Below, piece after piece: positions 2,611 to 16,227 of a stretch of 64,000 nt of DNA. The position numbers were made by a program, and so were the translations under genes. This DNA is from Arthrobacter globiformis (GTDB lineage: Bacteria > Actinomycetota > Actinomycetes > Actinomycetales > Micrococcaceae). Position 1 is the stretch's first letter. Each line of letters opens with the position of its first letter. Location of the stretch: contig NZ_JAUSZX010000001.1 in assembly GCF_030818015.1 (NCBI RefSeq), positions 1,240,001-1,304,000 on the forward strand. The letters run 5' to 3'. The notes under the pieces were generated by a model that did no database searches, was not told where the DNA came from, and saw only the letters and a program-made list of their open reading frames with translations.

Positions 2611-3342
2611 ATGCAAAAAGCGTCCAACGGCACCCGCGCCGGCAGCCGGCCCGAGGATCAGACCGGACGCAAGGGAGGCCGGACTGTCAGCCGCCAGGTT
2701 CTGGCCGACCACGTGTACGAGGAGCTGCTGGCTTCGCTCATGGACGGCAGGCTGGAACCCGGGGCCGCCGTCAGCATTGACGGAACTGCCCGCGAGCTGG
2801 ACGTTTCCCCGACCCCTGTACGTGAAGCACTGGCTCGCCTGGAACACACCGGCATGGTCCGCAGGGTGGCACTCAAGGGCTACAGCGTTGCGCCGGTGTT
2901 TACCCGGGAGGACTTTGCGGATCTCATGGAGGCCCGCCTTGCGATCGAGCCCGTCAACGCCCGGCTTGCCTGCGCGCGTCTGAACCCGCACCGCCTCGCC
3001 GAGCTTGAGCAAACAGTCACTGACCTGAAGTCGGCACCGCGCGGTCCGTCCTTTGCCGAGTACAAGGATTATCTCGAGGCCGACGAGCGCTTCCACCAGC
3101 TGATAGCCCAGCAGACGGGCAACCAGTTCCTCGTCGGCGCCTACGCCGCACTGGGCGGACAGGTTCAGCGCTTCCGGCTTTTCGGGGGCGTGGGAATCAC
3201 CGACGCCGAGAATGCCATCGCCGAGCACCAGTCGGTCCTGGACGCATTGTCCAGCGGTGACCCCAGCAAGGCGGAAGCCGCCATGGCGGCCCACATTCAG
3301 AAGGTCCGCGAACGCGCCATGGCGGACGCCCCGGAGGAGTAG
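2611..3342 (+). CDS. GntR family regulator, FadR/FCD type
   Basis: The 243-residue protein has an N-terminal winged helix (residues ~25-90, with DVSPTPVREALARLEHTGMV as recognition region) and an all-helical FCD ligand domain containing EARLAIEP and the metal/ligand histidine region DERFHQL. FCD regulators normally sense a small carboxylate or sugar acid and repress the adjacent catabolic operon. It lies 213 bp upstream of the tetrulose-type operon in the same direction, and CTATAGGA palindromes stand before both transcription units, so it is probably that operon's repressor. The start has no Shine-Dalgarno but a -10 at leaderless distance. Confidence 0.85.
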   Translation: MQKASNGTRAGSRPEDQTGRKGGRTVSRQVLADHVYEELLASLMDGRLEPGAAVSIDGTARELDVSPTPVREALARLEHTGMVRRVALKGYSVAPVFTREDFADLMEARLAIEPVNARLACARLNPHRLAELEQTVTDLKSAPRGPSFAEYKDYLEADERFHQLIAQQTGNQFLVGAYAALGGQVQRFRLFGGVGITDAENAIAEHQSVLDALSSGDPSKAEAAMAAHIQKVRERAMADAPEE

Positions 3343-3437
3343 CGGCCCCGGCGCGCATGAGCGACCGGGAGGCGTAGCGTGGAAGATGCAATGACTTGAT
3401 GCCTCGAGCGTGAGGCTCTTCACACGCAAGCATCATC

Positions 3438-3449
3438 TCTATAGGATCT
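3438..3449. promoter_or_regulatory. Second CTATAGGATCT operator copy
   Basis: TCTATAGGATCT matches 11 of 12 bases of the site at 2595 and lies about 100 bp before the operon's first gene. It may be a distal operator. Confidence 0.4.
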
Positions 3450-3492
3450 TCGATGGCTGGCAATCACGGCCGGGGGGCTAAGGGATGTGACC

Positions 3493-3527
3493 TTGACAAC
3501 TCCTATCAGATAGTAAATCCTATAGGA
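3493..3527 (+). promoter_or_regulatory. Operon promoter region with two palindromic operators
   Basis: A consensus -35 TTGACA (3493-3498) is followed by CTATCAGATAG (3503-3513, 5-bp arms) and TCCTATAGGA (3518-3527, a perfect 10-bp palindrome). No well-spaced -10 is obvious. The second palindrome shares its core with the sites at 2595 and 3438, which marks it as the likely binding site of the upstream GntR protein. Confidence 0.5.
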
Positions 3528-3555
3528 AACAGGATTCCACGAGGGAGTGAACACC

Positions 3556-4551
3556 ATGGCTTACACCGCCGACAACTGGCCCATCACCGCGGCACTGCTG
3601 CAGTTCCCGGGCGTCGACGCCCAGGGCACCCACATCAACGACGCTGACGCCTCCGCCTGGGCGGAAGTCTTCACGGAGGTCAAGGAAGCCGGCTTCGCCA
3701 ACGCCGACCTCACCGACAGCTGGGTCCGTCCCGGCGATCTCAGCAAAGAGCGCCTCACCGAGTTCAAGCAGACCGCCGAGAGCGTCGGCATCGGCATCCC
3801 GGTCATCTCCGCCATCCGCCAGAGCGTGATCGAAGAGGGCAAGTGGGAGGACAACCTGGCCTACAGCCACCGCACCATCGACGCCGCCGCTGAACTCGGC
3901 TGCGAAGTTGTCTCCTTCGGCCTGCACCAGGCAATCACCCCGGAACAGCAGAAGCAGCTCTGGTTCTGGACCGTCGAAGGCCACAAGGACCCGGTCGGCG
4001 ACAAGGAAGCCTGGAACAACGCCGTCGCGCGTTTCCAGGAACTTGGCCGGCACGCCGCAGAGGTGGGCGTCCTGCTCTCGCTCGAGATGTACGAGGACAC
4101 CTACATCGGTACCGCGGACTCGTCCGTGCAGTTCGTCCAGGACATCGGCCTGTCCAACGTCGGCCTCAACCCGGACCTCGGCAACCTGATCCGCCTGCAC
4201 CGGCCCATCGAGGACTGGCGGGAAATGGTTGCCAAGACCCTGCCGTACTCCAACTATTGGCACATGAAGAACTACATCCGTGACGAGGACGTGGCACGCG
4301 ACATGTATGTTGCCATGCCTGCCCCCATGGAAAGCGGCCTTATTAACTACCGCGAGGCGTTCAAGGTTGCCCTCTCCGTCGGCTACCAAGGCATCATCTG
4401 CACCGAGCACTACGGCGGCGACGGCCTCTCCGTGACGGCCAGCAACCAGGACTACCTGCGCCGCCACGTGCTGCCCAAGAAGGATGGCTACGCCCTCGGC
4501 AAGAGCCAGGTGGCGCAGGGGCGGCAGCAGCCCGCCGCCGTCGCCCATTAA
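3556..4551 (+). CDS. Xylose-isomerase-like TIM barrel (sugar phosphate isomerase/epimerase family), possible sugar-acid decarboxylase
   Basis: This 331-residue protein belongs to the AP-endonuclease-2/xylose-isomerase-like barrels. A divalent-metal site is readable as E177 (SLEMYED), D207 (LNPDLGN), H236 (WHMKNY) and E284 (CTEHYGG). The ATG at 3556 is preferred over the GTG at 3547 because GAGGGAG is correctly spaced from it. It opens the seven-gene operon, 47 bp before the kinase. Family members include isomerases, epimerases and, as I recall, the 3-oxo-isoapionate decarboxylase OiaC that forms L-erythrulose. Given the downstream erythrulose-type genes, a decarboxylase role is attractive but inferred. 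Confidence 0.8.
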   Translation: MAYTADNWPITAALLQFPGVDAQGTHINDADASAWAEVFTEVKEAGFANADLTDSWVRPGDLSKERLTEFKQTAESVGIGIPVISAIRQSVIEEGKWEDNLAYSHRTIDAAAELGCEVVSFGLHQAITPEQQKQLWFWTVEGHKDPVGDKEAWNNAVARFQELGRHAAEVGVLLSLEMYEDTYIGTADSSVQFVQDIGLSNVGLNPDLGNLIRLHRPIEDWREMVAKTLPYSNYWHMKNYIRDEDVARDMYVAMPAPMESGLINYREAFKVALSVGYQGIICTEHYGGDGLSVTASNQDYLRRHVLPKKDGYALGKSQVAQGRQQPAAVAH

Positions 4552-4598
4552 AACAGCGCACCAGAACCGACCAACCAACCCGGATTCAATGAGGAACC

Positions 4599-6374
4599 AT
4601 GACCCTGATCTTCGACAATCCCGCTGATTTCGCAGACGAGGCGCTTGACGGCTTCGTGGCCGCCAACCGCGGATACGTTGTCCGCGTCGACGGCGGCGTC
4701 GTCCGCTCCACGGAAATGACCTCCGGCCAGGTGGCACTCGTTATCGGCGGCGGCTCGGGACACTACCCGGCCTTCGCCGGCCTGGTCGGGCCGGGCTTGG
4801 CCGCCGGCTCCGCGTGCGGCAACATGTTCGCCTCGCCGGCCGCCGGGCAGGTCTACCGCGTGGCCAAGGCGGCAAACGCGGGCGGCGGTGTGCTGCTGAG
4901 CTACGGCAACTACGCCGGCGATGTGCTGCACTTCGGCCAGGCACAGCTCCGGCTCAACGCTGAAGGCATCGAGACGCGCACCGTTCTGGTCACGGACGAC
5001 ATCGCCAGCGCCCCGCTGGACCAGATCGAGAAGCGCCGCGGCATCGCCGGCGACCTGACGGTCTTCAAGATCGCAGGCGCCGCGGCCGAAGCAGGCCTCA
5101 ACCTTGACGAGGTGGAGCGCCTCGCCATCAAGACGAACCATCGCACGCGTTCGCTGGGTGTCGCCTTCGACGGCTGCACCCTTCCCGGCGCGTCCGAGCC
5201 GCTGTTCCACGTCCCGGCCGGGCAGATGTCGCTGGGCCTGGGAATCCACGGCGAACCGGGCATCTCCGAGCACCCCATGCCCACCGCGTCCGAACTCGCC
5301 GAGCTGCTGGTCTCCCGGCTTCTCGAGGACAAGCCGGACGACGCCGGTGACCGCGTAGTTGCCATCGTCAATGGCCTGGGCACGGTCAAGTACGACGAGC
5401 TGTTCCTCCTCTTCGGCAAGGTCGAAAAGCTCCTCAGCGCCGCCAACCTGACCGTCCTGGAACCGGAGTGCGGCGAACTCGTTACCAGCCTGGACATGTC
5501 CGGGCTCTCGCTCACCCTGCTGTGGCTCGACGACGAACTCGAGCAGTTCTGGGCCGCGCCGGCCGACACCCCTGCCTTCCGCAGGGGCAACACCGCGCCG
5601 CGCACCCGCCGCGAACTCTCCAGCGCCGAAGACACTGCCGACGAGGAGACCGAAAAGGCAACCGCGGCGTCCGCTAACCTGGGCCGGCTGGCAGCCGCCG
5701 TCCTCGCCCAAGTGCGGGACGTCGTCGTCGAACATGAATCGGAACTCGGCGACCTGGACGCGATCGCCGGCGACGGCGACCACGGCATCGGCATGCGCCG
5801 TGGCGTTGATGCGGCTGCCGCGGCCGGTGAACAGAACGCCGCTGCGGGAGCCTCGGTTGAACGTGTGCTCACCGCCGCAGGCGAGGCATGGAGCGAACGT
5901 GCCGGCGGGACCTCGGGTGCGCTGTGGGGCACGGCCGTCATGGCCGCCGGCCTCGCGCTGGGCAACCGGGATTCCTACGCCGCCGGGGACGCGAACGCAG
6001 CGGTGTCCGCCTTCAGCAATGCCATCACCGAACTCGGCAAAGCGGAGCCGGGGGACAAGACCATGGTTGACGCCCTCCTGCCGTTCCGGGCCGCGTTCGA
6101 AGAGGCGTTCGACGGCGGTGCCTCCCTGGCCGATGCCCTCACCACCGCCGCTGCCGCGGCAAACGAAGCAGCCCGCCGGACCGCGGACCTGCGCCCCCTC
6201 AAGGGCCGCGCCCGCCCGCTGGCTGAAAAGAGCCTTGGCCACCCGGACCCCGGAGCAGTCTCCTTCGGGCTGATTGCCGAGCGCGTGGCCACCTACCTCG
6301 CCTCTGATGCGGCCGATTCAACACCGGCCGCGTCCCACATGGCCTCGACGGCCGGAAACGGAGCAATGGAATGA
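4599..6374 (+). CDS. Fused DhaK-DhaL ketose kinase, probable erythrulose kinase
   Basis: The 591-residue ATP-dependent ketose kinase joins a DhaK substrate domain (residues ~1-330, [12 protein letters not shown] near 50, substrate-binding H217 in LGIHGEPG) to a DhaL nucleotide domain (~355-590, Mg-binding aspartates in [10 protein letters not shown] at 391-399 and the AGGTSG loop). No DhaM or PTS gene is nearby, as expected for an ATP-dependent fusion. Homologues phosphorylate dihydroxyacetone or, beside RpiB and TIM paralogues as here, L- or D-erythrulose (LerK/DerK of the Mycobacterium threitol pathways). A linker of about 30 acidic residues separates the domains. GAGGAA precedes the ATG, and the stop overlaps the next start by 4 bp. 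Confidence 0.88.
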
Positions 6375-6853
6375 GCAACACAGAAGGCTGGCGCATTGTC
6401 ATCGGCAACGATGAGGCCGGCGTTGAGTACAAGGAAGCACTGAAGGCCCTGCTGGAGGCGGACCCCCGCGTTGCCTCCGTCGAGGACATTGGCGTCGCTG
6501 CCAACGACTCCACCGCGTACCCGCACCTGGCTGTGGCAGCCGCCCGCAAGGTGGCCGAAGGCCAAGCGGACCGCGCACTCCTGATCTGCGGCACCGGCCT
6601 TGGCGTGGCCATCGCCGCCAACAAGGTCCCCGGCATCCGCGCCGTCACGGCGCACGACAGCTACTCCGTGGAACGCTCCGTTCTCAGCAACAACGCCCAG
6701 GTCCTCACCATGGGTCAGCGCGTCATCGGGCTGGAACTTGCCAAGAAGCTCGTGGGCGAATGGCTGGAGCACCGCTTCGATGAAAATTCGTCCTCTGCCG
6801 CCAAGGTGGATGCCATCTGCTCGTACGAACCCGACTACACGAAGGCCGACTGA
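6371..6853 (+). CDS. RpiB-type sugar phosphate isomerase, probable erythrulose-4-phosphate isomerase
   Basis: The 160-residue protein has the RpiB/LacAB fold with the catalytic cysteine at C73 ([16 protein letters not shown]) and the basic [10 protein letters not shown] segment. RpiB enzymes interconvert ribose and ribulose 5-phosphate, but operon members next to erythrulose kinases (EryI, DerI) convert D-erythrulose 4-phosphate to D-erythrose 4-phosphate. It overlaps the kinase by ATGA, showing translational coupling, and the next gene starts 2 bp after its stop. The context makes the tetrose substrate more likely than ribose. Confidence 0.85.
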
Positions 6854-6855
6854 AC

Positions 6856-7824
6856 ATGACCGAAACACCCACCAGCTCACGCAAGTTCGCCGTCGTCGGA
6901 TCCGGCTACATGGGCGGCGGCATCGCCCAGGTCCTCGCCCTCGGCGGGGCGCGCGTTGCTCTCGCTGACGTGTCCGCCGAGGTGGCGCAGAAGAACTACG
7001 AGCGCCTGCTCATCGAGTCCGACCAGTTCGTGGCGGACGGACTGTTCCCCGAAGGATCCACCGAAATCCTGAAGCAGAACCTCTGGGCCGCGAAGGACAT
7101 CGAGGAAGCCGTGGCTGACGCCGACTTCATCGAGGAGGCAGTGCCCGAGGTCATCGCCATCAAGCACGAGACGCTGGCCCGCATCAGCGCTGCCGCCCGG
7201 CCGGACGCCATCATCGGTTCCAACACCTCCACGATCTCCATCGCAGAGCTCTCCCAGCCGGTCGCCAACCCGGAGCGCTTCCTTGGCGTGCACTTCTCCA
7301 ACCCGTCGCCGTTCATCCCCGGCGTCGAGATCATCCCGCACGAGGGCACGTCTACCGAGACGGTTGCCGCTGTCCGCGACCTGGTCCACTCCGCCAACAA
7401 GCAGACGGCCGTGGTCAAGGACGTCACCGGCTTCGTCCTGAACCGCCTGCAGTACGCGCTCTTCCACGAGGCCGCGCAGCTGGTGGAGCAGGGCATCGCG
7501 ACGGCGGAGGACGTGGACACCCTGGTCCGCACCACCTTCGGCTTCCGGTTGCCGTTCTTCGGCCCCTTCGCCATCGCCGACATGGCAGGCCTCGACGTCT
7601 ACAACTTCTGCTACAAGTCGCTGCAGACCGACTTCCCGGAGCGCTTCGCCACACCGAAGATCCTCACTGACCTGGTGGAGGCAGGCAAGCTCGGCACCAA
7701 GACCGGTGCGGGCTTCCTGAATGTTCCGGCCGAGCGCACCCCCGAGCTGATCGCCTACCGCAACAAGGCCTACGTCGCGATGCAGAAGCTCATCGAGGAA
7801 CTCGGCCCGGCCCCGATCAACTAA
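6856..7824 (+). CDS. 3-hydroxyacyl-CoA dehydrogenase-fold NAD enzyme (gulonate/carnitine dehydrogenase-like)
   Basis: The 322 residues form a Rossmann domain (VVGSGYMGGG, glycines 15, 17 and 20) and a helical C-domain. The family catalytic pair is kept as H146 in VHFSNPSPF and E158 in VEIIP, and S122/N123 lie in GSNTSTI. Short stand-alone members act on hydroxy acids without CoA, such as L-gulonate 3-dehydrogenase and L-carnitine dehydrogenase. No thiolase, ligase or crotonase is nearby, so fatty-acid oxidation is unlikely. I infer oxidation of a 3-hydroxyl of a sugar acid to a beta-keto acid ready for decarboxylation. It starts 2 bp after the RpiB gene. Confidence 0.78.
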   Translation: MTETPTSSRKFAVVGSGYMGGGIAQVLALGGARVALADVSAEVAQKNYERLLIESDQFVADGLFPEGSTEILKQNLWAAKDIEEAVADADFIEEAVPEVIAIKHETLARISAAARPDAIIGSNTSTISIAELSQPVANPERFLGVHFSNPSPFIPGVEIIPHEGTSTETVAAVRDLVHSANKQTAVVKDVTGFVLNRLQYALFHEAAQLVEQGIATAEDVDTLVRTTFGFRLPFFGPFAIADMAGLDVYNFCYKSLQTDFPERFATPKILTDLVEAGKLGTKTGAGFLNVPAERTPELIAYRNKAYVAMQKLIEELGPAPIN

Positions 7825-7907
7825 TCTCCACCCCGCAAGGACCCTGCCCGCAGCCGGGCACGGTCCCGCTGCGCCATGCCCAAAACTCAACACTTAGGAG
7901 CACATCC

Positions 7908-8675
7908 ATGAGCACTTTTCCGTCTGAGCGCACGGCCATCGTCACCGGTGCTGTCTCGGAGCGCGGCATCGGCCGGGCCACGGTTAACTACCTGGCAGAG
8001 CAGGGCTGGAACATCGGCATCATCGACCTCGACGACGCCCTCTGCCAGGCCACGGCCAAGGAGATCGCCAGCCAGTACGGCGTGAAGGCCCACGGCGTGG
8101 GCGCGAACGTCGCGGACGAGGCATCGGTCCGCGCGGCGATCGACTCCATCGAGGCGGAGCTGCCGCAGATCGTGGCCCTCGCCAACATCGCCGGCGTCAG
8201 CTCGCCCGTCCCGTATCTGGAACTCGACGCAGCCGAGTGGAACCGCGTGCTCAACATCAACCTCAATGGCGTCCACTACACCACCCGCCGTGTGGCTGAA
8301 TCCATGGCGAAGCACCGGATCGGCCGCATCGTGAACATCTCCTCCGTCTCCGCGCAGCGCGGCGGCGGGACGTTCTCCAAGACCCCATACTCGGTGGCGA
8401 AGGCAGGCGTGATCGGCCTGACCCGTTCCACGGCCCGTGAACTGGGGGAGTACGACATCACGGTCAACGCTATTTCGCCCGGCCCCATCGACACCGACAT
8501 CATGGGCGGCACCCTGAGCCAGGAACGCAAGGACGAACTGGTCAAGGACCTCGTGGTCAACAGGGTTGGTTCCACCCGCGACATCGCAGCAGCCATCGCT
8601 TTCCTCATCAGCGAGGACGCCGGTTACATCTCCGGCCAGACGCTGAATGTGGATGGCGGCCTCTACATGCACTAG
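7908..8675 (+). CDS. SDR-family oxidoreductase, likely polyol or sugar(acid) dehydrogenase
   Basis: The 255-residue classical SDR has the cofactor loop TGAVSERGIG (14-22) and the catalytic set S148, Y161 and K165 (TPYSVAKAG), with the terminal SGQTLNVDGG motif. D40 after the second strand favours NAD over NADP. Such enzymes oxidise polyols, sugars or lactols; D-threitol dehydrogenase is a family member found beside similar kinase/isomerase genes. AGGAG stands before the ATG, and the 83-bp gap from the previous gene holds no clear promoter. The exact substrate cannot be read. Confidence 0.85.
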   Translation: MSTFPSERTAIVTGAVSERGIGRATVNYLAEQGWNIGIIDLDDALCQATAKEIASQYGVKAHGVGANVADEASVRAAIDSIEAELPQIVALANIAGVSSPVPYLELDAAEWNRVLNINLNGVHYTTRRVAESMAKHRIGRIVNISSVSAQRGGGTFSKTPYSVAKAGVIGLTRSTARELGEYDITVNAISPGPIDTDIMGGTLSQERKDELVKDLVVNRVGSTRDIAAAIAFLISEDAGYISGQTLNVDGGLYMH

Positions 8676-8736
8676 GAAAAAGTCCTTTCACCCCAGACAC
8701 CTGATTTGCTCACTTTTTACTCAAAGAGGAGTTTGA

Positions 8737-10134
8737 ATGACTGTCACCAACCCATCCACCACGAAGGAGCTGCTGGACTCGCCGGTTCTCAAATCGGCCA
8801 TTTCCAAGGCGTCCTTCCGGCTCATGCCCATGCTCGTCATCCTTTACGTCGTGGCCTTCCTGGACCGCACCAATGTGGGCTTCGCCGAGGCCGCACTCGA
8901 AGCGGACAAGGGCATCAGCGCGGGCGCCTACGCACTCGGCGCCGGCATCTTCTTCATCGGCTACGCCCTGTTCGAAATCCCCAGCAACCTGCTCCTGACC
9001 AAGTTCGGCGCCAAGGTGTGGCTGGCTCGCATCGCGGTCACCTGGGGCATCGTCTCCGCCTGCTTCGCCTTCGTGCAGGACGAGACCTCCTTCGTGATCC
9101 TGAGGTTCCTGCTGGGCGTGACCGAGGCCGGCCTCTTCCCCGGCGTCATCATGTTCCTCGCCGCCTGGTTCCCGAACAAGGTCCGCGTCAAGATGTTCGC
9201 CATCTTCTACCTGGCACAGCCCTTCTCCCAGATGATGGGCGCCCCGCTGTCCGGCTGGCTGATCAACATCGGCGACCAGGTTCCCGGCGTCCAGGGCTGG
9301 CAGGTCATGTTCTTCGTCGAGGGCATGCTCGCCGTGCTGGCCGGCATCGCCGCCTTCTTCTTCCTGATCAATAGCCCGCAGGGCGCCAAGTTCCTCAACA
9401 AGGACGAGAAGAAGGCGCTGCTGGACGTGATGGCCCTTGAGGACAACGTCAAGGAAGAGTCCGGCCCCCGCGGCGTCCTCGCAGCCATGAAGAACGGCCG
9501 CGTCTGGTACTTCACGGTCATCTACTTCTGCCTCCAGATCGCCGTGTACGGCGTGACCTTCTACCTGCCCCAGCAGGTAGCCCAGCTGACGGGCCAGAAG
9601 GTGGGTCTCGCCGTCGGACTCATGGCTGCCATCCCGTGGTTCTTCGGCATCTTCGCCTGCTATTTCATCGGCAAAGCTGCCAACACTGTGATCCGCCGCC
9701 GGGTCTGGGGCACCGGGCTGTTCATCTCCACCGGCCTGTGCATCTTCGGCTCCGCCTGGGCCGGCGCCAACCACCTGCCCGCGCTGGGCATCGTGTTCAT
9801 CACCCTCGCGGTGTGCAGCTTCCTCTCCATCGGCCCCATCGCCTGGTCGTATCCGACGGCATTCCTCACCGGAACTGCCGCCGCGGCAGGCATTGGGCTC
9901 ATCAACTCGCTGGGTAACCTGGGCGGCTTCGTGGCCCCGATCCTGCGGACTACCGTCAACCAGGTCACCGCCTCGGACACGGGCACCATGGGCGTCTACG
10001 CACTCGGTGTGCTGCCGTTCCTCGCCGCGGTCATGATGATCGGCACCCGGAAGTTCAAGAACAAAGCTGACGACCTGCTCGAAACCGGCGCGCCCGGGAA
10101 AACTGCCCAAGATCCTGCACTGCTGGAAAAGTAG
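8737..10134 (+). CDS. MFS transporter, anion:cation symporter (ACS) type
   Basis: The 465-residue protein has twelve predicted membrane helices and the ACS hallmark in TM1 (YVVAFLDRTNVGFA). Relatives such as GudP, ExuT, RhmT and tartrate porters carry monocarboxylic sugar acids or other organic anions with protons. This is the best clue that the operon's substrate carries a carboxylate rather than being a neutral polyol. A good GAGGAG precedes the ATG. It is followed at 66 bp by the TIM paralogue. Confidence 0.88.
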   Translation: MTVTNPSTTKELLDSPVLKSAISKASFRLMPMLVILYVVAFLDRTNVGFAEAALEADKGISAGAYALGAGIFFIGYALFEIPSNLLLTKFGAKVWLARIAVTWGIVSACFAFVQDETSFVILRFLLGVTEAGLFPGVIMFLAAWFPNKVRVKMFAIFYLAQPFSQMMGAPLSGWLINIGDQVPGVQGWQVMFFVEGMLAVLAGIAAFFFLINSPQGAKFLNKDEKKALLDVMALEDNVKEESGPRGVLAAMKNGRVWYFTVIYFCLQIAVYGVTFYLPQQVAQLTGQKVGLAVGLMAAIPWFFGIFACYFIGKAANTVIRRRVWGTGLFISTGLCIFGSAWAGANHLPALGIVFITLAVCSFLSIGPIAWSYPTAFLTGTAAAAGIGLINSLGNLGGFVAPILRTTVNQVTASDTGTMGVYALGVLPFLAAVMMIGTRKFKNKADDLLETGAPGKTAQDPALLEK

Positions 10135-10200
10135 TCAGCAACAAACCGCAGAAGCGCAGCAACACCAGCGCTGAGTACTCCAGCAAAGGCAGGAAACCCC

Positions 10201-11043
10201 GTGACCCAGCTCAACCAGGCCATCAAAGACCCCGGCACGATTCTTGTCGGCGTCAGCACCAAGATGTACCTGGGCTACGGGGACAGCCTCCGCTGGCTGG
10301 AAGAACTGCGAGAGCAGGTGGACGCCCGCCCGGCCCTCGCGGCCGGGCGGGTGGTTCCGTTCGTGATTCCGTCCTTCCCGATGCTGCCGGCCGCAGGGGA
10401 GATCATTGCCGGGTCGCCGCTGGTCCTGGGTGCCCAGAACTGCGGCTGGGCCGACGGCCCGTGGACGGGTGAGCTCTCGCCGTCGCTGCTCGCAGAGCTG
10501 GGCGTGGGACTCGTGGAGATCGGGCACGCCGAACGGCGGCGGCACTTCGGCGAGGACGACGCCATGATCGCACTCAAGGTCAGGGCGGCCGACGACGCCG
10601 CCGTTACCCCGCTGCTGTGCGTTGGGGAGGAGTCGCACGGCACGGAGACCACCCCAAGTACCGGAGCAGCCGACGCCGACAGCACTGCGGGCGCGGAAGG
10701 CGCCGCCCGGTTCGTCTACGGACAGATCGAGGCCGCGGTCGGCGGCGACTGGGGGCTCGCCGCCCGGCTGGTCATCGCATACGAACCCGTCTGGGCCATC
10801 GGAGCAGCCGAGCCCGCCAGCGCGGAGTACGTGTCCGCCGTCGTCCGTATTCTGCGGGAGTTGCTCGGTGCCCACGGCCTGCAGGGGTCGCCCGTGATTT
10901 ATGGCGGCTCCGCGAAACCCGGCCTGCTGCCCACACTGGCCGGGGTGTCGGGGCTGTTCCTCGGCCGGTTCGCGCACGACGCCGCGAACTTCGGAAAAGT
11001 TCTGGACGAAGCGCTGTCGCTGTCGGGCGCTCCCCGCCCCTAG
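10201..11043 (+). CDS. Triose-phosphate isomerase paralogue, probable L-erythrulose-1-phosphate isomerase
   Basis: The 280-residue barrel keeps the TIM catalytic set: K21 (VSTKMYLG), H109 (EIGHAERR) and E196 (AYEPVWAIG), and the phosphate loop YGGS at 234. It is longer and more divergent than glycolytic TpiA and has an insert rich in T, G and A near 145-165. It ends the operon with the erythrulose-type kinase and RpiB, exactly the position of EryH/LerI, which interconvert L-erythrulose 1-phosphate and D-erythrulose 4-phosphate. The start is GTG. A housekeeping TpiA would be expected elsewhere, next to gap and pgk. Confidence 0.82.
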   Translation: MTQLNQAIKDPGTILVGVSTKMYLGYGDSLRWLEELREQVDARPALAAGRVVPFVIPSFPMLPAAGEIIAGSPLVLGAQNCGWADGPWTGELSPSLLAELGVGLVEIGHAERRRHFGEDDAMIALKVRAADDAAVTPLLCVGEESHGTETTPSTGAADADSTAGAEGAARFVYGQIEAAVGGDWGLAARLVIAYEPVWAIGAAEPASAEYVSAVVRILRELLGAHGLQGSPVIYGGSAKPGLLPTLAGVSGLFLGRFAHDAANFGKVLDEALSLSGAPRP

Positions 11044-11067
11044 CCGGCTGACCCTAGCAGGCCGCCA

Positions 11068-11364
11068 CTAAAGGAACGCCTCCCGGCCCGTCCCCTCGCT
11101 GAGCACGAGCTCGCCGTCCTCAATGGACACAAGGAGGCTCCGTGGCCTGCCGTGAAGCTTCATTTCCGCGCTGAGATTGCGGCTGGTAACTTCAACCCCC
11201 ACTGTTGCGCCTTTTGCTGGCAGTTCAACGGAGACTTCCTCGGCCATGCCCAACAGCTCCCGGGTGGTGACATCGCGGTCGTACCGGGCCTCCTTGCCGT
11301 TGACCGTGATGGCGACCTCATCGTCGTTGAAGCCGTCCTGAAGAATGATGAGCAATTCCTGCAT
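11068..11364 (-). CDS. Conserved hypothetical protein, 98 residues
   Basis: Starting at MQELLIIL (ATG at 11364, TTAGG upstream) the protein is compact, acidic and rich in beta-type segments (AITVNGKEARYDRDVTTREL, VSVELPAKGATVGVEV, SLLVSIEDGELVLSE). No domain recognised. It converges with the TIM paralogue (24 bp between stops) and is divergent from Tex. Confidence 0.55.
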   Translation of the reverse strand: MQELLIILQDGFNDDEVAITVNGKEARYDRDVTTRELLGMAEEVSVELPAKGATVGVEVTSRNLSAEMKLHGRPRSLLVSIEDGELVLSEGTGREAFL

Positions 11365-11500
11365 GATGCGCCGCCTAAGTCGATGACCCCCGCTGCATAA
11401 AGTCACTACACCACTTAAGAGCGGCTGTGGGTAGTGCGGTTTACTCCGTTCGCCAACCCTTGATCGCCCCGGATCCGGACGCGTAGGGCAAAATGTTCTG

Positions 11501-14215
11501 GTGACCCAACAGCCGCAGCACCCCGCCACGCCCACGCCCAGCCCCGCCTCCGCCGCCGGGACAAAGCCGAAGGACACCCCCGCACCCGCGCCGGCCGGCG
11601 GCCAAGGCGCGGACGATGTCGCAGCCCGAATAGCGGCCCAGATCGCCGCCGAGCTCGGCGTAAAGGCATGGCAGGTGACAGCGGCTGTGGAACTGCTCGA
11701 CGGCGGGTCAACGGTTCCCTTTATCGCCCGCTACCGCAAGGAAGCCACCGGGACGCTCGACGACGGCCAGCTCCGCGAGCTCGACGAGCGCCTGCGCTAC
11801 CTCCGCGAACTGGGGGACCGCCGTCGGACTGTCCTGGAGGCGATTGCCGCGCAGGGGAAGCTGACCCCGGAACTGCAGGCCGCCGTCCTTGCTGCCGATA
11901 CGAAGTCGCGGCTTGAGGACATCTACCTGCCCTTCAAGTCCAAGCGGCGCACCAAGGCACAGATCGCCCGCGAGGCCGGTCTGGAACCGCTCGCGGACAT
12001 CCTGCTCAAGCGCCCGGAACTTGATCCCGAACGCGAGGCGGCCAAGTACCTGAACGCGGACCACGCCATCGACGACGCCGCTGCGGCGCTCGCCGGCGCC
12101 CGCGCCATCATCGTGGAGCGCGTGGCCCAGGACGCCGACCTTGCCGAGAACCTGCGCGAGCGGCTGTGGACGCAGGGCCGGATGGTGTCCCGGGTGAAGA
12201 AGGGCAAGGAATCCGAGGGGCAGAAGTTCGCGGATTACTTCGAGTTTTCGCAGGCCCCGTCGGGAATGCCGTCGCACCGCGTGCTGGCCCTGCTGCGGGG
12301 TGAGAAGGACGGGGTGCTCGAGCTGGACCTCACCGAAGCGGATCCGGCCGACGAGGAGGCCCTCGCCGCCGCGCGCACCCGTTACGAATCCGCCGTGGCC
12401 CGGTTCCTCGGGGTTGCTGACCGTGGCCGGCCTGCCGATTCCTGGCTGCTCCAAACCGCCCAGGTGGCATGGCGGTCCAGGGTACTCGCGCGGCTGACCG
12501 CCGACCTGCGGGGACGGATGTTCGCCGCCGCGGAAGACGAAGCCGTGCGCGTTTTCGCCGCCAACCTGCGCGACGTGCTGCTGGCGGCGCCTGCCGGAAA
12601 CCGCTCAACCCTGGGCCTGGACCCCGGCCTGCGGACAGGTGTCAAAGTTGCTGTGGTGGACGGGACAGGCAAGGTAGTCGCCACGGACACTGTCTATCCG
12701 CACGCGCCGGCGCGGAAGTGGGACGAAGCACTGGCGACCCTGGAGCGGCTGGCGCGGAAGCACGCCGTCGAACTCGTGGCCATCGGCAACGGAACGGCGT
12801 CGCGCGAAACGGACAAGCTCGCCGCCGAACTGATCAAGCGGCTCTCTGCAGCTGCCGGCTCCGGCGCCGGTGCCGTGGCGCCGCAGAAGCTGGTGGTGTC
12901 CGAGGCGGGCGCGTCCGTGTACTCGGCGTCCGCCCTTGCCGCTGCCGAACTCCCCGGTATGGATGTGTCCCTGCGCGGCGCGGTGTCCATTGCCCGCAGG
13001 CTGCAGGATCCGCTGGCTGAGCTGGTGAAGATCGATCCGAAGTCGATCGGCGTGGGGCAGTACCAGCACGATGTCACGGCCGCGAAGCTGGACCGCAGCC
13101 TGGATGCCGTGGTGGAGGACTGCGTGAACGCCGTGGGCGTGGACGTGAACACTGCGTCCCCAGCGCTGCTGAGCCGGGTGGCCGGCGTCGGGCCGCTGCT
13201 GAGCGAGAATATCGTGGCGTACCGCAACGAGCACGGGCCGTTCGCCAAGCGCAGCGAGCTGAAGAAGGTGCCACGGCTCGGAGCAAAGGCGTTCGAACAG
13301 TGTGCCGGGTTCCTCAGGATCACTGGAGGAGCGGAGCCGCTGGACGCTTCCAGCGTCCACCCCGAGGCGTACTCGGTGGCCCGGAAGATCCTGACTGCGG
13401 CCGGCGCCGCTGGCGGTTCCGGTGCTTCCGGAGGGGCAGCCGCCGGTCTTGCTCCGCTGGCCGATGCCGGACGGCTGAACCCTGCCGATTTTGTCGATGG
13501 AACCTTCGGGCTCCCCACCGTACGCGACATCATCGCCGAACTTGAGAAGCCGGGGCGCGATCCGCGTCCGGCGTTCAAGGCCGCGGCGTTCTCCGAGGGC
13601 ATCGAGAAGATCTCGGACCTGTTGCCTGGCGTGGTCCTCGAAGGAACCGTCACCAACGTGGCTGCCTTCGGCGCGTTCGTGGATGTGGGGGTTCACCAGG
13701 ACGGGCTGGTTCACGTGTCCGCCCTCGCGAACCGGTTCGTCGCCGATCCGCGCGAGGTGGTGAAGTCCGGACAGGTGGTTCGGGTGAAGGTGCTTGAGGC
13801 TGATCCGGAGCGGAAGCGTATCTCCCTCACGCTGAGGCTCGACGACGAACCGGCCGCTTCCGGCGACCGCTCCGCTGGGGGACGCTCGGCTGGGGGACGC
13901 TCGGCTGGGGGACGCGGCGGCGACCGCGACCGGGAAGGCGGCCGCGACCGGGATGGCGTCGGCCGCGCCGTCGGCCGCACCGCCGAACGTTCGGCAGGCG
14001 GCAACCGCGGCGGTGGTCGGGAAGGCGGCCGGAACCGGTCGGCTGCTCAAGACCAATCTGGCGGAAAGCCCGGGGCACGCCAGGGCAGTGATTCGGGCCA
14101 GCCTGCGGCCGAGCGCAGCGGCGGAATGCGGCAGCCGAAGCAGTCCGGTCAGCGGCCAGCTCCAGCGGATACAGCCATGGCCGAAGCCCTGCGCCGGGCC
14201 GGCCTCGGCAAGTAG
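11501..14215 (+). CDS. tex: Tex family transcription accessory / RNA-binding protein with RG-rich tail
   Basis: The 904-residue protein follows the Tex plan: N-terminal helical region, YqgF-like RNase-H fold (~367-500, STLGLDPGLRTGVKVAV), helix-hairpin-helix pair (~540-610, NTASPALLSRVAGVG), and an S1 domain (~705-785, GTVTNVAAFGAFVDVGVHQDG). Tex/Spt6 relatives bind nucleic acid and act in transcription and RNA turnover. The last ~115 residues are unusual: RG/GGR-rich low-complexity sequence containing a 15-bp tandem repeat, like RNA-binding tails of eukaryotic proteins. The start is GTG without a clear Shine-Dalgarno. Confidence 0.92.
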   Translation: MTQQPQHPATPTPSPASAAGTKPKDTPAPAPAGGQGADDVAARIAAQIAAELGVKAWQVTAAVELLDGGSTVPFIARYRKEATGTLDDGQLRELDERLRYLRELGDRRRTVLEAIAAQGKLTPELQAAVLAADTKSRLEDIYLPFKSKRRTKAQIAREAGLEPLADILLKRPELDPEREAAKYLNADHAIDDAAAALAGARAIIVERVAQDADLAENLRERLWTQGRMVSRVKKGKESEGQKFADYFEFSQAPSGMPSHRVLALLRGEKDGVLELDLTEADPADEEALAAARTRYESAVARFLGVADRGRPADSWLLQTAQVAWRSRVLARLTADLRGRMFAAAEDEAVRVFAANLRDVLLAAPAGNRSTLGLDPGLRTGVKVAVVDGTGKVVATDTVYPHAPARKWDEALATLERLARKHAVELVAIGNGTASRETDKLAAELIKRLSAAAGSGAGAVAPQKLVVSEAGASVYSASALAAAELPGMDVSLRGAVSIARRLQDPLAELVKIDPKSIGVGQYQHDVTAAKLDRSLDAVVEDCVNAVGVDVNTASPALLSRVAGVGPLLSENIVAYRNEHGPFAKRSELKKVPRLGAKAFEQCAGFLRITGGAEPLDASSVHPEAYSVARKILTAAGAAGGSGASGGAAAGLAPLADAGRLNPADFVDGTFGLPTVRDIIAELEKPGRDPRPAFKAAAFSEGIEKISDLLPGVVLEGTVTNVAAFGAFVDVGVHQDGLVHVSALANRFVADPREVVKSGQVVRVKVLEADPERKRISLTLRLDDEPAASGDRSAGGRSAGGRSAGGRGGDRDREGGRDRDGVGRAVGRTAERSAGGNRGGGREGGRNRSAAQDQSGGKPGARQGSDSGQPAAERSGGMRQPKQSGQRPAPADTAMAEALRRAGLGK
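13871..13915 (+). repeat. Three 15-bp tandem repeats inside tex
   Basis: Three head-to-tail units of TCGGCTGGGGGACGC (first unit one base different) encode SAGGR repeats in the Tex tail. The period is a multiple of three, so copy-number change would keep frame. Confidence 0.9.
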
Positions 14216-14289
14216 GCTCCCGCACGGGCGGAGCGTGTCGCGGGCACAGTATCCGGGACGGGCGGAAGCCGGTGACTACAGTAGCCCCT

Positions 14290-16227
14290 ATGAGTTTTAC
14301 GAGGCCGGAGACTTTCACCACCCGTCCTACCCTGCAGGGCACGTTCGGCATGTCCGCTACGACCCACTGGCTCGCCACCGGCACAGCGCAGGCCGTGCTG
14401 GAGCGGGGCGGCAACGCGTTCGACGCGGCCACCGCCGCCGCGTTCGTGCTGTTTGTGGTGGAGCCGCACCTCAACGGGCCGGGCGGCGACATGACCGGCG
14501 TCTTCAGCACGGCGGAGGAGCCTGGGAAACCCGTGGTCCTGATGGGCCAGGGCCCTGCGCCCGCGGGCGCTACCGTCCAACACTTCCGCGCCGAGGGCCT
14601 GGAACTTGTGCCCGGATCAGGTGCGCTCGCCGCGGCGGTTCCCGGCGCCGTCGATGCCTGGCTGTTGCTGCTGCGAGACCACGGAACGTGGGAACTGGCG
14701 GAAGTCCTGGATTTCGCCATCCGGTATGCGCGCGACGGCCACCCGGTGCTGGCGCGCGTCTGCAGCACGATCTCGGCAGTGGCGGGGCTTTTCCGCGAGC
14801 ACTGGTCCACGTCTGCCGAATTGTGGATGCCGGAGGGGCGAATCCCGGAGGAGGGTGAGCTGGTCCGGAATCCGGCGCTTGCCCGCACTCTCCAGAAACT
14901 GGTCCAGGCCGGTGCCGGCCTCGGCGAGGCATTCGCCGCAGAGCCCGCGCACACGCGAGAGGAGCGTATCGACGCCGCCCGCAGGGAATGGAGCGAGGGC
15001 TTCGTGGCCCGCGCCGTGGCCGAAAGCGTTCGCACACCGCACCGCCACTCGTCCGGGACCGACCACCGGGGCGTCATGACGATGGCTGACATGGCCGGAT
15101 TCCGCGCGTCGTATGAGGAAGCGGTCACGTTCGAGTTCCGCGGGCACACCATCGCCAAGACCGGCCCTTGGGGGCAAGGGCCGGCCCTGCTGCAGATGCT
15201 CGCGATCCTGGCCGGCTTCGATGACGACCACCTCGACCCGTCCACCGAGCTCGGGGCACACACCATCCTGGAGGCCCAGAAGCTCGCACTGGCGGACCGT
15301 GAGGCTTACTACGGCGACGCGGATGTCCCGCTCGATTACCTGCTGTCCGAAGAGTACGCGGCGTCCCGCCGGGAGCTGATCACGGAAAATGCGTCGTTTG
15401 AGTTTCGTCCGGGCTCCGTTCCCGGGCGTGCGCCGTACGTGCCCGCGCTTCGCACCGAGTATGTTCCGGCTGCACTGTTGAATGACGACGGCGGGTCGCC
15501 CCCTTCGGGAGGTCGTGCCGCTCCCGGCCGCCTGGGTTCCGCGGCTGCCGCCGCCGGCGTTGGCGAACCGACGATCGGTGAACCCACGCTCGGTGAACCC
15601 ACGCTCGGTGAACCCAGTGTGGCGTCCAACGGGGAAACCCGCGGCGACACGTGCCACATCGATGTTGTGGACCGGTGGGGCAACATGGTTTCGGCCATGC
15701 CGTCCGGCGGTTGGCTGCAGTCGTCGCCCGCGATCCCTGAGCTCGGGTTTTGCCTGGGCACGCGGTTGCAGATGACGTGGCTTGAGCCCGGAACGCCGTC
15801 CACGCTGACGCCGGGCAAGCGGCCCCGGACCACGCTGACGCCGACGCTGGTGCTGCGTGATGGCGCTGCTGTCTCCGCGCTCGGCTCGCCGGGGGGAGAC
15901 CAGCAGGACCAGTGGCAGTTGCTGTACCTGTTACGGACCATCGTCGGCGGGTACACGCCGCAACAGGCCATCGATGCGCCGGCGTTCCACACGACGTCGA
16001 TGCCCGGGTCTTTCTGGCCGCGCACCTGGGAACCTGGCGGCGCCGTCGTCGAGGATCGATTGGGCGGCGACGTCATCGCCGGACTAGAGCGACGGGGACA
16101 CCGGATCACCAGGGCTGGCGACTGGACGCTGGGACGGCTGTCCGCCGTCGTACGCGATCCCAGGACCGGCGTGCTGCAGGCTGCCGCGAACCCGCGGGGT
16201 GCGCAGGGATACGCGGCGGGACGGTAG
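14290..16227 (+). CDS. Gamma-glutamyltransferase family N-terminal nucleophile hydrolase
   Basis: The 645-residue protein has the GGT fold; the predicted autocleavage and nucleophile threonine is T454 (GDTCHIDVVDRWGNMVS). GPGGD, characteristic of the large subunit, occurs near 65 and the acceptor-site motif GSPGGD near 535. No signal peptide is seen, so unlike E. coli Ggt it should be cytoplasmic; such actinobacterial forms are often annotated GGT or acylase-like. ATG 14290 is chosen because TACAGT lies eight bases upstream, a leaderless arrangement; a GTG at 14272 is in frame. A four-unit 15-bp repeat lies just before the nucleophile, in the linker expected to be cut. Confidence 0.85.
   Translation: MSFTRPETFTTRPTLQGTFGMSATTHWLATGTAQAVLERGGNAFDAATAAAFVLFVVEPHLNGPGGDMTGVFSTAEEPGKPVVLMGQGPAPAGATVQHFRAEGLELVPGSGALAAAVPGAVDAWLLLLRDHGTWELAEVLDFAIRYARDGHPVLARVCSTISAVAGLFREHWSTSAELWMPEGRIPEEGELVRNPALARTLQKLVQAGAGLGEAFAAEPAHTREERIDAARREWSEGFVARAVAESVRTPHRHSSGTDHRGVMTMADMAGFRASYEEAVTFEFRGHTIAKTGPWGQGPALLQMLAILAGFDDDHLDPSTELGAHTILEAQKLALADREAYYGDADVPLDYLLSEEYAASRRELITENASFEFRPGSVPGRAPYVPALRTEYVPAALLNDDGGSPPSGGRAAPGRLGSAAAAAGVGEPTIGEPTLGEPTLGEPSVASNGETRGDTCHIDVVDRWGNMVSAMPSGGWLQSSPAIPELGFCLGTRLQMTWLEPGTPSTLTPGKRPRTTLTPTLVLRDGAAVSALGSPGGDQQDQWQLLYLLRTIVGGYTPQQAIDAPAFHTTSMPGSFWPRTWEPGGAVVEDRLGGDVIAGLERRGHRITRAGDWTLGRLSAVVRDPRTGVLQAAANPRGAQGYAAGR
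15562..15621 (+). repeat. Four 15-bp tandem repeats inside the GGT gene
   Basis: Units of GGTGAACCCACGCTC (two identical, two with changes) encode GEPTL repeats about 10 residues before the predicted cleavage threonine. Confidence 0.9.

Follow-up and report, generated by a model that had tools for sequence, protein, structure and literature searches.

The oxidative D-apionate route is among the closest relatives of the operon described here, which lies on the + strand at positions 2611-11043 of a 64,000-nucleotide stretch of the 5.09-Mb genome of Arthrobacter globiformis (C1:1240001-1304000, the window in what follows). The operon comprises, in this order, genes for a GntR/FCD regulator, a metal-dependent PF01261 barrel, a fused DhaK-DhaL kinase (DhaKL), an RpiB homologue, a 3HCDH-fold dehydrogenase, a short-chain dehydrogenase/reductase (SDR), an MFS porter and a TIM paralogue. 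The apionate route has in common with the window the oxidation of a hydroxyacid, a PF01261 barrel, a fused DhaK-DhaL, a TIM paralogue, RpiB, an acid-type porter and an FCD regulator; its dehydrogenase, however, has the KARI/PGDH_C fold rather than the 3HCDH fold, the barrel subfamilies are distinct, and the A. globiformis genome carries both sets.

Two further systems resemble one half of the operon each. Tetritol catabolism in M. smegmatis (LerK, LerI, DerI) shares the lower pathway from L-erythrulose to D-erythrose 4-phosphate, but its front end is a polyol dehydrogenase instead of a barrel and a 3HCDH enzyme. M. smegmatis is reported to make D-erythrose 4-phosphate from tetritols via erythrulose (PMC12780249), and LerK, LerI and DerI, together with EltD, to convert L-threitol and erythritol to erythrose 4-phosphate in E. 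coli (PMC10733421). In animals, CRYL1 and 3-dehydro-L-gulonate decarboxylase (C11orf54, DUF1907) likewise pair a 3HCDH-fold aldonate 3-dehydrogenase with a metal-binding beta-keto-acid decarboxylase that releases a ketose, although they lead from C6 to C5, whereas C5 to C4 is proposed for the window, and the decarboxylase folds are unrelated. Since the product of the animal L-gulonate 3-dehydrogenase, a 3HCDH-fold enzyme, is described as being decarboxylated to L-xylulose by an enzyme of unrelated fold (PMC12435205, which also reports 3HCDH-DUF1907 fusions in rotifers), the chemistry proposed below, aldonate oxidation by a 3HCDH enzyme and then decarboxylation, has a C6 precedent.

We propose, with a probability of roughly 0.56, that the window operon serves the catabolism of a C5 sugar acid (a linear L-series pentonate is the most likely one) by way of a beta-keto acid and its decarboxylation to L-erythrulose. 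Gene content, conservation, fold, residues, the swapping of dehydrogenases between loci and the arrangement of one further locus, L180, are observed; the reactions, the substrate and its stereochemistry we infer. If true, the proposal would assign a function to a family of barrels for which a crystal structure (PDB 5tnv) exists without a functional name and which is widespread: of the genomes sampled, 98 of 396 in the order and 19 of 394 in the class carry it. It would supply pentonates with an oxidative route whose end point is erythrose 4-phosphate, and would also reveal an unusual pattern, in which one decarboxylase stays while the dehydrogenase that precedes it is exchanged between unrelated folds.

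Gene content and conservation of the operon

A sequence-only reading of the window had named six genes, all of which lie at 3556-11043 on the + strand and exceed the Pfam cut-off of the family given to them: the 331-aa barrel (3556..4551; AP_endonuc_2, PF01261, 90.5 bits), the kinase (4599..6374; Dak1 370 bits, Dak2 156 bits), RpiB (6371..6853; LacAB_rpiB 158 bits), the dehydrogenase (6856..7824; 3HCDH_N, PF02737, 167 bits; 3HCDH, PF00725, 86.9 bits), the porter (8737..10134; MFS_1 145 bits) and the TIM paralogue (10201..11043; TIM 151 bits). It omitted the SDR (7908..8675; PF13561, 210.9 bits) and made no mention of the GntR/FCD regulator (2611..3342; PF00392 47.6 bits, PF07729 104 bits). From the barrel through TIM, the intergenic spacings are 47, -4, 2, 83, 61 and 66 bases. 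The barrel starts at ATG 3556, with gagggagtg just before it, and an alternative GTG start lies at 3547.

A scan of named genomes confirmed 230 candidates, of which the best 80 loci were kept. The barrel is followed by DhaKL, RpiB and 3HCDH in the same order in 77 of the 80, the exceptions (L044, L050, L078) reaching contig ends, so that the cluster is not a chance neighborhood. DhaKL is present in 79, the SDR, MFS and TIM genes lie downstream in most, and a GntR/FCD regulator lies upstream of the barrel in many. The closest named relatives of the barrel come from Arthrobacter (97% in A. globiformis). A sub-group of nine loci (L057, L062-L065, L067, L068, L070, L071) has an ABC porter ahead of barrel-DhaKL-RpiB-3HCDH, and L057, the sole member tested with Pfam (2688-14305), also encodes two Gfo/Idh proteins, a second PF01261 protein and a ThuA protein. 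These nine loci are from Pseudarthrobacter/Arthrobacter, and their gene set looks as if a glycoside were processed first.

The barrel and its changing dehydrogenase partner

The wider sample comprised 61 loci, 59 of them chosen from the class and order sample matches and joined by L081 and L082, with genes counted within 10 kb of the barrel. DhaKL was found in 50, RpiB in 41, 3HCDH in 39, TIM in 34, an SDR of the same sequence cluster as that of the window in 24, a HIBADH-like dehydrogenase in 14 and PdxA in 7. The barrel is kept while its partner varies between 3HCDH, an L-threonate-dehydrogenase-like enzyme, PdxA, or none found; the HIBADH-like representative is closest to the L-threonate dehydrogenase model (217 bits, cut-off 350), and the PdxA-like representative passes Pfam PdxA. 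When 63 rows of a quick tree of 72 barrels are labelled by dehydrogenase, the label switches 9-11 times. RpiB is nearby in 23/32 loci with 3HCDH only, 6/6 with HIBADH only and 5/6 with PdxA only. Because the barrel is constant while its partner is swapped among hydroxyacid dehydrogenase families, an acid would seem to be oxidized and then decarboxylated in two steps, a scheme expected to give just such an exchange, and each dehydrogenase may admit a different stereoisomer.

Rhizobial and Paracoccus loci combine PdxA, a Tct porter, the barrel and DhaKL; in Rhizobium L221 a second PdxA accompanies the Tct genes at a separate position. The L222 locus of Sinorhizobium sp. BG8 has an SMP-30 lactonase, a D-erythronate dehydrogenase (360.9 bits, curated cut-off 325), the barrel and DhaKL, and an SMP-30 lactonase also lies downstream of 3HCDH in L150; these adjoining lactonases point to an aldonate substrate. 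The transporters met (galactonate-type MFS, GntP, TctA) are of kinds that often carry acids, and the porter of the window, a putative sugar-acid importer, resembles D-galactonate transporters (best NCBIfam model TIGR00893, 264.7 bits, below its cut-off of 395).

L139 and L143 have divergent barrels and no 3HCDH; the neighbors of these barrels are an ABC porter of the BMP type, a class-III aminotransferase and a gene resembling adenosine deaminase, and their function is perhaps another one. Six loci (L134, L155, L160, L179, L185, L128) have a four-carbon acid sugar kinase-like gene (SBD_N/NBD_C) and a HIBADH-like gene beside the barrel operon. In Acidisoma (L223) an 86-residue barrel match, perhaps a broken copy, lies beside an annotated denD with an IS30 transposase nearby. 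On pSymB of S. meliloti (L081:15944 onward) a DhaKL homologue comes right after the barrel and is absent from the listed gene table.

Within the barrel, E177, D207 and E284 are present in all 34 aligned sequences and H236 in 30 of them (Q in the other 4); judging by the fold, we take these four residues to be the metal ligands. A grouping of the barrel with plain epimerases would have counted against the sequence-only reading; with the curated D-psicose 3-epimerase model the barrel scores 26.4 bits, below the cut-off of 300. PDB 5tnv is a xylose isomerase-like TIM barrel protein of M. smegmatis with bound Mg; the five loci of its type differ from the window in having GntP in place of MFS and no SDR. 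OiaC shows that PF01261 enzymes can be decarboxylases, and a role as beta-keto sugar-acid decarboxylase is proposed for the window barrel.

The 3HCDH protein, a candidate NAD-dependent aldonate 3-dehydrogenase, belongs to an alignment of 25 sequences in which N123, S125, H146, N149, P150, E158 and N196 are invariant; S125, H146, E158 and N196 are presumably the catalytic Ser/His/Glu/Asn of the 3HCDH superfamily. Its closest solved relative is 4om8, a dehydrogenase of a free pyridine acid (186.8 bits versus at most 149 for CoA enzymes), and among NCBIfam models, too, the one for that enzyme scores highest, its 229 bits lying far below the cut-off of 500. The sequence-only reading had advised a comparison with L-gulonate 3-dehydrogenase; lambda-crystallin/CRYL1 structures (3f3s, 3ado) reach 107-108 bits against the 186.8 of 4om8 and are not the closest solved relatives.

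A parallel operon of the apionate type

The same genome contains a second operon (L145, C1:4843629-4849910) with the order MFS-DhaKL-RpiB-TIM-260-aa PF01261 barrel-286-aa PGDH_C/KARI_N protein and with a divergent FCD-type regulator. Against the PDB, the 286-aa protein (L145:7629-8486 by locus coordinates, next to its partner barrel at L145:8491-9270) best matches 5t57 and 3c24, oxidoreductases without a specific functional name, ketol-acid reductoisomerases being weaker matches; at E 1e-10, NCBIfam yielded no model for this protein or for the short barrel. In the oxidative D-apionate route, OiaC and ApnO likewise pair a PF01261 barrel with an oxidoisomerase of KARI-like fold, and L145 is probably a D-apionate operon. 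A D-apionate oxidoisomerase is named in PMC11747546.

The window and L145 sets are 69% identical in RpiB, 57% in DhaKL, 45% in TIM and 39% in MFS, and as judged by these values the two operons differ chiefly in the front end. The window barrel matches the L145 barrel, a stand-in for OiaC, at 22% over 112 aa only and is not its orthologue, and no ApnO-type KARI/PGDH_C oxidoisomerase was found by Pfam among the genes of the window operon. Since the genome also carries an apionate-type operon of its own, the window operon is a module parallel to the apionate set and not a form of it. Of the sequence-only reading, then, the erythrulose trio and the oxidation and decarboxylation of an acid remain likely, while the placement within the oxidative D-apionate route has to be given up.

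How the two front ends relate is best seen in L180, from the same order, where a single DhaKL-RpiB-TIM set has on one side a pair of apionate-type genes, whose products share 67% and 48% identity with their L145 counterparts, and on the other the barrel/SDR/3HCDH genes. This arrangement, the strongest argument available and one drawn from a single locus, suggests that both front ends deliver one product, L-erythrulose. In L184 a KARI-type protein lies within 10 kb, and its partner barrel was not found there.

The predicted lower pathway

For the enzymes acting on L-erythrulose, the sequence-only reading had proposed counterparts of LerK, LerI and DerI, a trio that remains likely. The kinase exceeds the cut-offs of PF02733 and PF02734 and scores 764 bits versus 492 with PRK14479. 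A kinase tree places eight barrel-locus kinases together with the apionate-type kinase (SH-aLRT 100) and four HIBADH-class kinases together with three from mycobacterial-type ABC/ADH loci (96). The likeness of the window kinase to proven erythrulose kinases is one of family, not of closest kinship. RpiB passes TIGR02133 (201.6 bits, cut-off 168.2).

The second-best sequence match of the window TIM is PDB 11ef (122 bits), deposited as L-erythrulose-1-phosphate isomerase. In the TIM tree, operon TIMs and 11ef are separate from the housekeeping TIM of the genome and from the 1b9b TIM (SH-aLRT 94) and form two sub-clades, with barrel locus L183 supplying a TIM that shares 51% identity with 11ef across 220 columns. 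The window TIM is 36% identical to 11ef, 45% to the apionate-type TIM and 35% to the housekeeping TIM; the genome has two more TIM genes, one of them housekeeping-like. Literature searches on '5TNV' and on the phrase 'L-erythrulose kinase' turned up no paper, most subscription papers lying outside their reach.

Proposed pathway and alternatives

In the pathway proposed, the MFS porter would import a pentonate such as L-arabinonate, L-xylonate or L-lyxonate, the 3HCDH enzyme would oxidize its 3-hydroxyl to give a beta-keto acid, and the metal-dependent barrel would decarboxylate this through a metal-bound enediolate to L-erythrulose. The DhaKL, as a putative L-erythrulose 1-kinase, and the LerI- and DerI-like enzymes would then lead into central metabolism. 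The SDR might, tentatively, prepare or epimerize the acid, by reducing a 2-keto acid or changing the stereochemistry of the substrate, and the GntR/FCD protein would probably repress the operon until the acid is present. Only a 4S pentonate yields L-erythrulose on loss of C1. Dihydroxyacetone as the ketose is disfavored because RpiB would have no evident job.

Sources of such acids can be suggested. Oxidation of the diketogulonate that comes from vitamin C is described as yielding 2-oxo-L-threo-pentonate (PMC6225978), and the compounds into which vitamin C breaks down are reported to include L-xylonate and L-lyxonate (PMC11276620). The SDR could reduce a 2-oxo acid such as 2-oxo-L-threo-pentonate. 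Esterase, GH51 or GH3 genes adjoin L150, L151, L129 and L172, hinting at an acid derived from L-arabinose without fixing the substrate. Among the matches listed for literature on pentonates with erythrulose, titles and abstract openings gave no 3-oxo-pentonate decarboxylation route, which does not show its absence from print. It is tempting, if tentative, to regard the 5tnv-type barrel as a hub decarboxylase for 3-oxo-pentonates of several stereochemistries, to which unrelated dehydrogenases (3HCDH, LtnD-like, PdxA, DenD-like) would each admit a different L-pentonate, including ascorbate-derived L-xylonate and L-lyxonate and cell-wall L-arabinonate. With such a hub, pentonates would reach erythrose 4-phosphate oxidatively, by a route that is neither that of Weimberg nor that of Dahms.

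A number of observations weigh against a pentonate pathway through L-erythrulose. We know of no enzyme of the barrel family with a tested activity, and the 3HCDH model resembles CoA dehydrogenases and holds no information on the substrate. RpiB falls below the DerI model NF051858 (160.8 bits, cut-off 240), a model that is rhizobial by name, and the TIM of the window falls not with 11ef but with the apionate-type TIM, in the sister sub-clade. Within 10 kb, 9/61 loci have none of the three dehydrogenases and 11/61 no DhaKL; among the loci without these genes L135 is only 3 kb long, but others are not cut. In five rhizobial loci with barrel and DhaKL (L081, L218, L220, L221, L222), the stretches read contain neither RpiB nor TIM. 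ABC permeases are near the barrel in 17/61 loci and GH3 or GH51 in 8 (5 3HCDH-only, 3 HIBADH-only), so some relatives may start from a sugar and not from an imported acid. The established activity of DenD and LtnD-like enzymes is the oxidation of C4 acids at C2, and this would suit a C4 substrate, or a barrel that isomerizes, equally well. Finally, the window kinase belongs to a third clade of 15 barrel-locus kinases only (99), and because this clade excludes the apionate-type and mycobacterial-type ABC/ADH kinases, the C5 reading is slightly weakened and a C4 alternative slightly strengthened.

In that C4 alternative, which we consider unlikely, a tetronate (threonate or erythronate) would become 3-oxo-tetronate, which the barrel would decarboxylate to dihydroxyacetone, with DhaKL giving dihydroxyacetone phosphate and the TIM paralogue glyceraldehyde 3-phosphate. 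It would account for the D-erythronate dehydrogenase adjoining the barrel in L222, the annotated denD beside the barrel fragment of L223, the LtnD-like nature of the HIBADH class, the Paracoccus locus L219, where barrel-DhaKL-PdxA-Tct adjoins genes annotated as 3-oxo-tetronate kinase and aldolase, and the rhizobial loci with neither RpiB nor TIM seen near. Yet it leaves RpiB, near in 41/61 loci and in all three dehydrogenase classes, without a role, the genome already has two other TIM genes, one housekeeping-like, and some barrel-operon kinases nest with the apionate-type kinase. Rather improbable is a barrel that acts as an isomerase, the dehydrogenase oxidizing C2, the barrel shifting the carbonyl from C2 to C3 in the manner of OtnI-type enzymes, and CO2 being lost spontaneously or on the same enzyme; the family membership of the 3HCDH and PdxA classes marks them as beta (C3) dehydrogenases, for which a carbonyl shift would be unnecessary, and OiaC is a PF01261 decarboxylase.

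That the operon is the oxidative D-apionate pathway itself, with 3HCDH in place of ApnO, is very improbable: the kinase and isomerase families, the MFS group and the regulator type are as in the apionate-type operon, and both have a PF01261 barrel, but the genome keeps that operon as a distinct one with a barrel of such low similarity, and the C3 tertiary alcohol of D-apionate is not oxidizable by a plain dehydrogenase. Hardly credible, too, is the view that the operon serves a neutral tetritol or erythrulose and that 3HCDH and the barrel are bystanders in it, a view for which the tetritol pathways of M. smegmatis and E. coli (PMC12780249, PMC10733421) could be invoked. Barrel and 3HCDH persist together in 7/11 wider loci without DhaKL (L138, L155, L159, L173, L175, L178, L184), the remaining 4 having neither DhaKL nor 3HCDH, so the pair has a life of its own.

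Upstream elements

A conserved promoter- or operator-like block on the + strand at 3493..3527 precedes the barrel gene and consists of TTGACA (3493-3498) and the palindrome TCCTATAGGA (3518-3527). The palindrome occurs at most 230 bases upstream of the barrel in 69/80 named loci and TTGACA in 70/80; the two may be a promoter and a GntR operator, respectively. A second, TCTATAGGATCT-like site lies at 3438-3449, upstream of the conserved palindrome.

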